NCBI GenBank assembly: GCA_016873215.1
Contig: VGXU01000015.1
Location: 1 to 48,824, forward strand
DNA: 48,824 bases
Direction of reading: 5' to 3'
From: Planctomycetota bacterium
GTDB taxonomy: Bacteria > Planctomycetota > Phycisphaerae > Sedimentisphaerales > Anaerohalosphaeraceae
Shown: positions 26,821-32,249 of the stretch, in pieces
Layout: every line of letters begins with the position of its first letter
Position numbering within the stretch: position 1 is the first letter of the stretch
Translations under genes and position numbers: made by a program
Notes under the pieces: model-generated
Told to the model about the DNA's origin: nothing
The model's database searches: none
What the model saw: only the letters and a program-made list of their open reading frames with translations

Positions 26821-28590
26821 TCAAGAGCCCGACGGTAATTTTTGTAAAGTGTCAAGCAGTTCCTGTTTGTCGAAGATGCCGCGGAGTTTGATTTGCCGGC
26901 CGTCGGGCAATAAAATAATACTCACCGGCACGGTTCCCGATTCGCCATAGAGGCCTGTCAAGTCTCCGGTCGCTGGCATATCTTTGGCGGTGGTGTCGGC
27001 CTTGATAATCAGCACAGTCTTGTCTTTGATCAGCTTGACCACCTGCGGGTCGTGATAAATACGTTTTTCAACGACGACACAATTGGTGCACCAGTCAGCG
27101 GTAAATTTGATGACGACAGGCTGTTTGGCGGTGACGGCCTTTTGTATCATCGCCGCATCATACGGTTTCCAGTTGAGAACATCTTTCTGTGTGGGCAACA
27201 GCCAGAAGCCGGATAATACGGCAATCAACACGGCGACGATTCGCACGGCCCATTTTTTACCTCTCGGTGTGGCGAAATTGACCCAGCTTCCCCACATCCA
27301 CAGGCAGAAACTTAATATCAACGCATAAAATAGCGCATCAACTAATCGTTCTTTCGGCAGTGCGCTCAGCAATTTGACGGCGATAATCAGCAAAATGAAA
27401 CCCATCGCCTTGCGGATATGCTCCATCCAGTCGCCGGGCCGCGGCAGTTTATTTAATAGACTGGGGACAAGTACGATGATTGCGTAAGGCAGGGCCATCC
27501 CGGCACCCATTAGGGCGAATGCCAGCAGGCTCATCGCCGGGCTTTGTGTCTGCGCCCAGACCACCACCGCCGCCAGAATCGCGCCGCTGCACGGCGTACT
27601 CAGCAATGCCGCCAGAAACCCCATCCCGACCGAGCCGGCCATTCCGCCGCCGGTCGATGCGCCGCCGGTAATCGATGATGGCACGGCAATGCCGAAGACA
27701 TCGAACATAAATAATCCGAAGGCCATGAGAAACAGGCCCATCGCCAGCACGACCGCCGGGTATCGCAGGTGGTCACCCCAATTGAAGACGGCGCCGGTGG
27801 TCACTTTAATAATAATGGCCGCCGCGGCGAAAACGACAAAGAATAAAATCACGCCAATGCAGAATGCCATGCCCAGCCCGATGCGCCGAACGGTTTGTTC
27901 TTTCGCCTGGCTGATGAGCCGGGACAGAATCAATGGAATCACCGGCAGCACACACGGCATAATATTAAATGAAAGCCCCGCCAATACCGCCATAATCAAA
28001 TAAAAGCTCCTGACCCCTTTATTTTCAACATTTCTGTCGGAGCTTTCTACTTTGTCATTCCGGCGAAAGCCGGAATCCAGATTTTCTTTTGTTATAATTT
28101 GTCGCCACGTATCTGCTTTTGCAAAATCAACCTGTGCCGTCAGCGTTTTTTCAAACGGCCGCAGACATATCTTACTGGTGCAGGCGACGCCGGCGATGGT
28201 GACAGTGACGGCGGTCTCTTTTTGCGGGGCGGATTCAATTGGAATATAAACCTCGAATTTACCGACGAAGACGTCGATATTTTTTTCCTGTGCCGGGTCG
28301 TAAAATTGTCCTGGCTTTGGGAAAATGGTTTTGCCGAAGGCGACGCCGTCAGCCTTAGCGGTGATAGTCAGTTCCGTCCCCGGCGCAGGCGCCGTATCGG
28401 CGGAGGCGTAAAAATGCAAATCATCCGTGCCATCAAATACAACGGCAATGGCGGGCCTGCCGTCCAATTGCACCGGCTCAATCCGCGCCGCCGAATGCTG
28501 GTCTTCATATTTGGCAATCTCCGACCCCTGTGCCGCAAAAACCGGCATGCTTAATATTGCCAGCAGGACAATTCCGACCATTAGCTGCAT
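26821..28590 (-). CDS. dsbD: Thiol:disulfide interchange protein DsbD
   Basis: DsbD carries electrons from cytoplasmic thioredoxin across the inner membrane to periplasmic partners. The 589 residues comprise a signal peptide (MQLMVGIVLLAILSMPVFA), an N-terminal periplasmic domain (about 20-165), a membrane domain of about eight helices with the paired cysteine sites FNIMPCVLPVIPL and LLSTPCSGAI, and a C-terminal thioredoxin domain with ADWCTNC near 498. The ATG at 28590 is chosen because the frame further upstream crosses a REP palindrome. A 28-bp palindromic repeat is inserted in frame in the linker at about residues 171-180 (LDSGFRRND). A weak promoter TTGAAC-N16-TATAGA may lie at 28716-28743. 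Confidence 0.92.
   Translation of the reverse strand: MQLMVGIVLLAILSMPVFAAQGSEIAKYEDQHSAARIEPVQLDGRPAIAVVFDGTDDLHFYASADTAPAPGTELTITAKADGVAFGKTIFPKPGQFYDPAQEKNIDVFVGKFEVYIPIESAPQKETAVTVTIAGVACTSKICLRPFEKTLTAQVDFAKADTWRQIITKENLDSGFRRNDKVESSDRNVENKGVRSFYLIMAVLAGLSFNIMPCVLPVIPLILSRLISQAKEQTVRRIGLGMAFCIGVILFFVVFAAAAIIIKVTTGAVFNWGDHLRYPAVVLAMGLFLMAFGLFMFDVFGIAVPSSITGGASTGGGMAGSVGMGFLAALLSTPCSGAILAAVVVWAQTQSPAMSLLAFALMGAGMALPYAIIVLVPSLLNKLPRPGDWMEHIRKAMGFILLIIAVKLLSALPKERLVDALFYALILSFCLWMWGSWVNFATPRGKKWAVRIVAVLIAVLSGFWLLPTQKDVLNWKPYDAAMIQKAVTAKQPVVIKFTADWCTNCVVVEKRIYHDPQVVKLIKDKTVLIIKADTTAKDMPATGDLTGLYGESGTVPVSIILLPDGRQIKLRGIFDKQELLDTLQKLPSGS
28053..28080 (-). repeat. 28-bp palindromic repeat inside dsbD (copy 1)
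   Basis: ATTCCGGC-GAAA-GCCGGAAT is a perfect 8-bp stem with a tetraloop inside a 28-base unit that recurs exactly at 43878-43905. Here it is translated as the peptide LDSGFRRND between the periplasmic and membrane domains of DsbD. Confidence 0.85.
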
Positions 28591-28599
28591 ACGCGAAAT

Positions 28600-28630
28600 G
28601 TAGGGTGTGCAGCTTTGCTGCACACGCGGA
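28600..28630 (+). repeat. GTAG-headed REP-like palindrome, copy b
   Basis: GTAGG precedes a 9-bp hairpin (GTGTGCAGC, loop TTT, GCTGCACAC) and is followed by GCGGA. All 31 bases are identical, in inverted orientation, to the palindrome at 29950-29980 next to the RAYT gene. It lies in the dsbD 5' region, 10 bases from the start codon. Confidence 0.85.
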
Positions 28631-28739
28631 TAATTCCGCACACACAGTTGTTTATGACAATTTTTGATAAAAAACATTCTTGTCCTTTCGATGTATCGCT
28701 TTCTCTTGCAATACATCTATACCTTGTTTTTAGAAAAGT

Positions 28740-29315
28740 TCAATTTTGAATCAATCCTTTTTTGACTTTCTCCGCAGGTAGCCATTGTTGCGACCACACA
28801 AAAACTCGAATTTTTTCTTTCTCTTTAGTGTAAAAAAACCATAGACCTTCCCCGTAATCATTATGATCCAGGCCAATGATTAAACAGTTTTCTTTGTAAT
28901 CAGCCAGACTTTCCTGATTCCACCAATCAGGCTTTTTGAAAAAAAGTTTTGCAAATGAGGTTTCAGAATAAGAAACATCAGAATGATGAAATGGATAGTC
29001 GAAATATTTATGCGAGTTGATGAATTCTTCTAAAGTTGACAATTTTGCTGTTGCTTCCAGATAATGATAATTGGTGTCAAATTCCAAGACATAATAGTGT
29101 TGTATATCTGTCGAACTTTCCGGGAGGTATGCGGCGAGAATTTTCCACTCCTTTTGGAACGAAACATATTTTTTGTAGTGATTTTGGTTGCTTTGCCACC
29201 GTTCTCCGAATCTCCAGCAATAAAGGTTTAAAAGAAATAAAGTTGCAAAAATACAAATAGATATGAATATTACTGTCCATAGATATGCGAATAATTTTTT
29301 GATAATCAGTATCAT
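28740..29315 (-). CDS. AT-rich orphan gene, single-pass membrane protein
   Basis: 191 residues with one N-terminal membrane segment (about 12-32, TVIFISICIFATLFLLNLY) and a polar remainder rich in Tyr, Trp, Phe, Lys and Asn (for example HHSDVSYSETSFAKLFFKKP). Its base composition is visibly more AT-rich than its neighbours. It lies between REP-like palindromes b and c, beside a RAYT gene, which suggests an acquired segment. No family is recognised. Confidence 0.65.
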   Translation of the reverse strand: MILIIKKLFAYLWTVIFISICIFATLFLLNLYCWRFGERWQSNQNHYKKYVSFQKEWKILAAYLPESSTDIQHYYVLEFDTNYHYLEATAKLSTLEEFINSHKYFDYPFHHSDVSYSETSFAKLFFKKPDWWNQESLADYKENCLIIGLDHNDYGEGLWFFYTKEKEKIRVFVWSQQWLPAEKVKKGLIQN

Positions 29316-29337
29316 TTGAATTTACCTATTCAATTTT

Positions 29338-29367
29338 GTAGGGTGTGCAACTTGTTGCACACGCGGG
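29338..29367 (+). repeat. GTAG-headed REP-like palindrome, copy c (left of RAYT)
   Basis: GTAGG, then the hairpin GTGTGCAAC/GTTGCACAC with a two-base loop, then GCGGG. It ends 3 bases before the RAYT stop codon. Confidence 0.8.
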
Positions 29368-29370
29368 TTG

Positions 29371-29928
29371 TTATTCCCATTTTTCGCCAAAATTGTCACC
29401 AAGTATTTCCTGTATCTCTGATAACTCAGGGATTTTATATCGTCCTGCTTCTATGTGCTGATGATAACTCGAAAAAGGCCAATCTTCAACCTTTTCGACC
29501 AATTTATGTTTGACGGGATTCCAATGGATATAATGAATATGTCTTGCCAAATCTCGCGGGTCCCGTATTCGGTGTTCCCAGAAGCGTTTTTGCCAGACGC
29601 CGCGATGTCGTCTTTGCTGACGGGACTGGCTCTGGATTATTTCTTCGCCGCCGGCCTTGAGCCAATTATGGGTGAAATCTTTTTTAATTAATGTCCATCG
29701 TGTGGAATAATCGTTGTCCCCGTCCGGCAATCTCCAAATACAGTGCAAATGCTCCGGCAGCAGGCATGCCGCCACCGATTCAAAAGGCCGCCGATGTTGT
29801 ACGCGCTGCCATGCCGAATGCAGGATTGCCCGTGCAAGCGGCGTGGCTAAAAATGGGACGCGGTTGTATGTGACAAGGGTGAAGAAATAATAACCGCCTG
29901 CGTTTTTAATCCTTCTGTAATGCGACAT
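29371..29928 (-). CDS. REP-associated tyrosine transposase (RAYT, Y1 HUH family)
   Basis: A single-strand DNA endonuclease of the IS200/IS605-related HUH group, known to nick and join at REP hairpins. The 185 residues start MSHYRRIKNAGGYYFFTLVT. The HUH metal motif is HLH at 60-62 (CLLPEHLHCIWRLPDGD). KKDFTHNWLK and RRHRGVWQKRFWEHRIRD follow, then the catalytic Tyr at about 123 in HIHYIHWNPVKH, and the closing DWPFSSYHQH. The ATG at 29928 is chosen because a longer frame would run through the palindrome upstream. All catalytic residues are present, so it may be active. Confidence 0.9.
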   Translation of the reverse strand: MSHYRRIKNAGGYYFFTLVTYNRVPFLATPLARAILHSAWQRVQHRRPFESVAACLLPEHLHCIWRLPDGDNDYSTRWTLIKKDFTHNWLKAGGEEIIQSQSRQQRRHRGVWQKRFWEHRIRDPRDLARHIHYIHWNPVKHKLVEKVEDWPFSSYHQHIEAGRYKIPELSEIQEILGDNFGEKWE

Positions 29929-29949
29929 ACGCAAAATCCCAAAAAACAA

Positions 29950-29980
29950 TCCGCGTGTGCAGCAAAGCTGCACACCCTAC
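29950..29980 (-). repeat. GTAG-headed REP-like palindrome, copy d (right of RAYT)
   Basis: On the minus strand it reads GTAGG, the hairpin GTGTGCAGC-TTT-GCTGCACAC, then GCGGA. It is identical over 31 bases to copy b at 28600 and lies 21 bases upstream of the RAYT start. Confidence 0.85.
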
Positions 29981-32220: not shown

Positions 32221-32249
32221 GTAGGGTGGGTGGTTTCCACCCACTGCGA
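32221..32249 (+). repeat. GTAG-headed REP-like palindrome, copy e
   Basis: GTAGG with the hairpin GTGGGTGG-TTT-CCACCCAC, then TGCGA. The head, loop and tail match copies b-d but the stem has changed on both sides, keeping the pairing. It lies between the glycosidase and purC. Confidence 0.75.

Follow-up and report, generated by a model that had tools for sequence, protein, structure and literature searches.

RAYTs are regarded as domesticated bacterial transposases that still spread tiny REPs, and both the spread of REPs and the origin of RAYT genes are open questions. A RAYT-like gene bracketed by GTAG-headed palindromes in a planctomycete contig, lying within the 48,824-nucleotide stretch of DNA analysed here (the window), raises the question of whether gene and hairpins form a unit that disperses REPs, and whether such a unit can itself move. 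According to the literature there is no evidence of tnpAREP gene mobility, RAYT genes not copying themselves (PMC8266576, PMC6006769, PMC8049555); earlier reports of RAYT-unit mobility may exist, our literature search having covered the journals in part. The reading favoured here, to which we assign a probability of about 0.85, is that the window unit is a minimal REPtron whose RAYT recognises its own GTAG hairpins, disperses REPs and could in principle move the whole unit.

The unit (29338-29980, 643 bp) is filled almost entirely by the RAYT gene, with 22 nt separating its ATG at 29928 from the right REP and 4 nt separating its stop codon (29371-29373) from the left one (Table 1). The initial annotation had placed GTAG-headed palindromes at both gene ends, and its coordinates for these and for the 643-bp unit proved exact. 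The hairpin arms are 88-94% paired and, folded as ssDNA, the two hairpins reach -9.4 and -11.9 kcal/mol (z -3.7 and -5.0), beating nearly all shuffles; left and right differ in one compensated stem pair (A-T vs G-C) and in loop length. The pattern GTAGGGTGTGC-N4-16-GCACACGCGG is found three times in the window, the third time as the solitary REP of Table 1, which the initial annotation had missed, against 0.00 expected from 100 window shuffles, and its reversed control has 0 copies in the same genome, which rules out chance hairpins. A gene bracketed by inverted REPs is a REPtron, a term used by Di Nocera 2013 (PMC3733652) and later authors; since inverted REPs flank the gene here, the window unit belongs to an already known kind, and the proposal of a REP/RAYT unit in a planctomycete genome is borne out.

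Table 1. Coordinates of the RAYT unit and neighbouring features in the window.
Feature	Position	Strand	Details
Solitary REP	28600-28629	+	30/30 bases as in right-end REP; 13 nt upstream of likely dsbD start codon
191-aa orphan gene	28740-29315	-	Between solitary REP and unit; missing together with unit from both congeners; possible passenger
Left (stop-codon-side) GTAG REP hairpin	29338-29366	+	GTAGGGTGTGCAACTTGTTGCACACGCGG; GTAG outermost
RAYT/TnpAREP gene, 185 aa	29371-29928	-	H60, H62, Y133, N137; GTAG readers W112, Q113, E118, R122
Right (start-codon-side) GTAG REP hairpin	29951-29980	-	GTAGGGTGTGCAGCTTTGCTGCACACGCGG; GTAG outermost

The gene product was rightly described as a 185-residue protein with HLH at 60-62, a motif that is invariant among relatives. 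Its identification as a RAYT is confirmed by NCBIfam NF047646 (REP_Tyr_transpos, REP-associated tyrosine transposase), which matches with 178 bits at a cut-off of 80, and by a nine-sequence profile that finds E. coli TnpAREP (PDB 4er8) at E 4e-50; a Pfam search of the protein gave no match at 1e-3. In the 4er8 alignment the HUH motif, the catalytic Tyr and the metal-binding Asn are all present, H60/H62 falling on the HUH histidines, N137 on Asn119, and Y133, the Tyr of the HIHYIHWNP block already singled out, on Tyr115. For the reading of GTAG, PMC6006769 discusses four residues of E. coli TnpAREP, W94, Q95, E100 and R104, and all have their counterparts here, in W112, Q113, E118 and R122. Glu rather than Asp at the E100 position fits those published subclasses that are E. 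coli-like, not 2.5/2.7. By homology, the protein is a RAYT/TnpAREP with every known catalytic and GTAG-reading residue in place.

The host genome of the window (2.69 Mb, 123 contigs) contains one RAYT gene and 10 hairpin copies: the pair that ends the unit, the one at 28600 and seven more on separate contigs, the left-end REP, one base shorter than the right-end one, having been added to this count from separate searches. The same pattern has 0 copies in two congeners. Dispersed cognate REPs, near-identical and far more numerous than chance allows, are what the initial annotation had named as a mark of mobility. Their number is well under the >100 usual for REPtrons, and the composite BIME/REPIN arrays that usually go with it are replaced by copies that, apart from the flanking pair, are all solitary; Nunvar 2010 (PMC2817692) calls >100 copies usual and also lists families with fewer, so high copy number was not taken as defining. 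The eight solitary REPs (30-mers) show 0-1 mismatch to the right-end REP, four of them none, and their flanks are unrelated, starting with the base that precedes GTAG on one side and 1-2 bases past GCGG on the other. The GCGG(G/A)TTGTT reported past the hairpins is shared by the two unit ends, but most solitary copies agree no further than GCGG(A), and TTGTT is thus not part of the REP. REPIN doublets were looked for in the window genome, and none were found apart from the unit itself; solitary REPs are immobile remnants of doublets according to PMC8049555.

Most solitary REPs are intergenic, adjoining for example leuS-, dapB-, topA- and lpxA-like ORFs (names read from the translations). One lies in frame within a tilS-like gene (L008 1501-1530), encoding SRVCSFAAHA; a comparison of TilS orthologues as an empty-site test is no more than suggestive, this REP falling in a linker that varies. 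A second unusual insertion (VAQPPSAV) is found further downstream in this tilS-like protein, in an overlapping frame or extension. The solitary REP of the window sits where the congeners have a GGAGATAC ribosome-binding-like site, the likely dsbD start being at ~28587, and it may have shifted where dsbD begins, or translation may run through it in frame.

Among known systems, the E. coli K-12 REPtron (TnpAREP/RayT, PDB 4ER8) has a protein homologous over nearly its full length (~42-45% identity to the window RAYT), the same catalytic and GTAG-reading residues (including E118/H119 for E100/H101) and GTAG-headed hairpins around the gene. The window unit differs in its single hairpin per side and its shorter, nearly perfect stem, and its genome has 10 REPs instead of hundreds, solitary apart from the flanking pair, without BIMEs or REPINs. 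The RAYT-REP units of Nunvar et al. 2010 (PMC2817692), such as that of Haemophilus influenzae (GTAGGGTGGGCTTcAGCCCACC), resemble it in the GTAGGGTG-type REP, whereas its host phylum, Planctomycetota, its stem sequence and its low REP copy number set it apart.

In the mechanism proposed for the window REPtron, the RAYT would act as an HUH-Y1 single-strand endonuclease and strand-transferase that recognises its cognate GTAG-headed hairpins in single-stranded form, for instance on the lagging-strand template. Y133 would probably cut at a GTAG-guided site, the ends would be rejoined, and the reaction would scatter the 30-nt REP as solitary copies through the genome; REP dispersal by the RAYT is suggested by near-identical copies with unrelated flanks. 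The same reaction could in principle carry the whole GTAG...CTAC unit, given the outward GTAG hairpins at both gene ends. From the absence of the unit in both congeners we infer that the window copy itself may have moved whole, and the RAYT may well be active in this genome today. Intact residues and near-identical REPs support the earlier suggestion of possible activity, short of proof; that of a self-contained mobile unit is supported for relatives and is not proven for the window copy, with its one RAYT and no base-exact empty site.

The most serious competitor, though distinctly the less probable, is a domesticated RAYT, in which the gene would be immobile and kept for a host function, spreading REPs at most, and the flanking REPs would be old left-overs or regulators. 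Published work takes the E. coli-like and Pseudomonas RAYTs to be of this kind (PMC8266576, PMC8049555), and the one RAYT copy in the window genome agrees with it. Its patchy presence does not: strong RAYT matches occur in 38/392 sampled genomes of the phylum, and the gene is absent from both congeners and most of the family. No RAYT was found on phages, and the 24 plasmid records, half of them Escherichia, are each <60% identical. Within the same family and order, RAYTs of 50-58% identity are likewise accompanied by inverted GTAG hairpins, with a different stem sequence. Across 71 relatives from many phyla, each taken with 250 bp on both gene sides, outward GT[AG]G hairpins stand at both ends in 24, with the same first 10 nt in 23 of these; shuffled flanks give 0 such cases and the inward orientation 9 (6 sharing the first 10 nt), and the simple hairpin finder used misses further hairpins.

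Domestication is also opposed by the relatives, where near-identical copies lie dispersed and a site stands unoccupied. Unit copies dispersed in other planctomycetes are 93-97% identical, and their similarity stops at or within ~15 bp of GTAG...CTAC. The genome G375 has two ~680-bp units, 97% identical, 2.9 Mb apart and with unrelated flanks; they stay similar up to CTAC at one end and to within ~15 bp of GTAG at the other. Site 1 is unoccupied in the congener G445, where it is spanned within one contig and the flanks join at the 8-bp CTTTGCAG, which brackets the occupied site as a direct repeat. The extra DNA at the occupied site amounts to 735 bp, made up of the ~679-bp unit and a further 20 and 36 bp. 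Site 2 is unoccupied in G445 too, but there the G375 unit lies between the copies of a 63-bp direct repeat (L207 5367-5429 and 6127-6189), at which an assembly could collapse; the single-contig genome G339 also lacks the full unit at this site and has a REP-like remnant. Small GTAG/CTAC palindromes surround the insertions at the G375 sites, hinting at a target preference. Another genome, G256, carries three copies (93-94% identical, pairwise dN/dS ~0.1) with different flanks; same-genus empty sites were not found for them, the sample containing no other genome of that genus. The copies of G398 (96-97% identical, two in tandem) are a weaker sign of unit transposition because of their longer shared edges and tandem arrangement. 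Decayed copies, as expected for a mobile element, again run against domestication, G375c having a premature stop and G256c an Asp at the catalytic Tyr position.

Short elements such as G256:C5:113701-113936 consist of both RAYT-unit ends with the middle missing, looking as if REP pairs arose through internal deletion of the unit. In G043, the 3' part of the RAYT unit recurs at a second site as a 257-bp, 99.6% identical copy ending abruptly inside the gene (L154 496-752 and L158 2007-2263).

Unit transposition is the simplest reading of the relatives' copies, and recombination between older copies, or deletion in G445, could be a partial source of the pattern. Judged on these comparisons of sequence, it is an even call that RAYT/REP units at least sometimes transpose whole in planctomycete relatives. 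The odds are just as balanced for Planctomycetota RAYT/REP units being true autonomous transposons, in which the whole ~640-690-bp unit moves, solitary REPs are themselves mobile and internal deletions yield REP pairs; if true, this would contradict the published view of non-self-copying RAYTs and immobile singlet REPs. RAYT mobility can be put to a direct test in those planctomycetes whose genomes offer complete units in several near-identical copies, a congener site without the unit, and identical solitary REPs.

A further possibility, which we consider unlikely, is that the mobile piece at the window locus is a composite spanning 28600-29980, with outward REPs at its outer ends and the 191-aa gene as a passenger beside the RAYT. 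The dsbD-like gene and the DUF4174 gene are ~310-320 bp apart in the congeners G001 and G002 and ~1.8 kb apart in the window; the ~1.5 kb present in the window genome only comprises the unit, the 28600 REP and the 191-aa gene, and neither congener, at 84 and 87% completeness, yielded a RAYT. The segment missing from both congeners thus holds both genes, as a composite would have it, and the 28600 REP faces outward and is identical to the right-end REP. The 191-aa protein has no Pfam match, and its gene is in 2/118 searched genomes only, the window genome included. In the other, G060 (45% identity), no window-type REP hairpin lies within the 3.5-kb locus, and a second copy of the composite is not known. 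Not until about 30253 does the window again match the congeners' intergenic DNA significantly; the edges can thus be placed only approximately, and one composite insertion looks the same as separate insertions. A larger insertion, or deletion in the congeners, is a possible source of the missing ~1.5 kb. The empty-site comparison suggested by the initial annotation therefore succeeded in part: the unit is absent from both congeners, but these are too divergent to provide a base-exact empty site.

An ordinary IS200/IS605 insertion sequence with subterminal hairpins is highly improbable: the family (IS608, ISDra2) shares the HUH-Y1 transposase fold and hairpins near both ends, and the profile weakly matches the IS200-type structures 2ec2 and 2f4f (E 0.0008-0.004), but TnpAREP is by far the closest (4er8, E 4e-50, vs 8e-4 or worse for IS200-type chains) and the ends are inverted GTAG REPs with cognate solitary copies dispersed. 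The TIRtron/TIRYT arrangement (PMC3733652), with long terminal inverted repeats unrelated to GTAG REPs, fails as well, the terminal repeats here being GTAG hairpins.

Other palindromes occur in and around the window. GTAG-type hairpins of another sequence (GTAGGGTGGG...), at 32221-32249 and in L009 1501-1524, resemble those of related genera's RAYTs and are possibly remnants of other REP families. A different dispersed palindrome, of the GTCATTCCGGCGAAAGCCGGAATCC type, lies at 28053-28087 inside the dsbD-like gene, where it encodes 10 residues; it resembles the CGTC-tagged repeats of PMC3733652 and has copies on several contigs of the window genome and in many family relatives.
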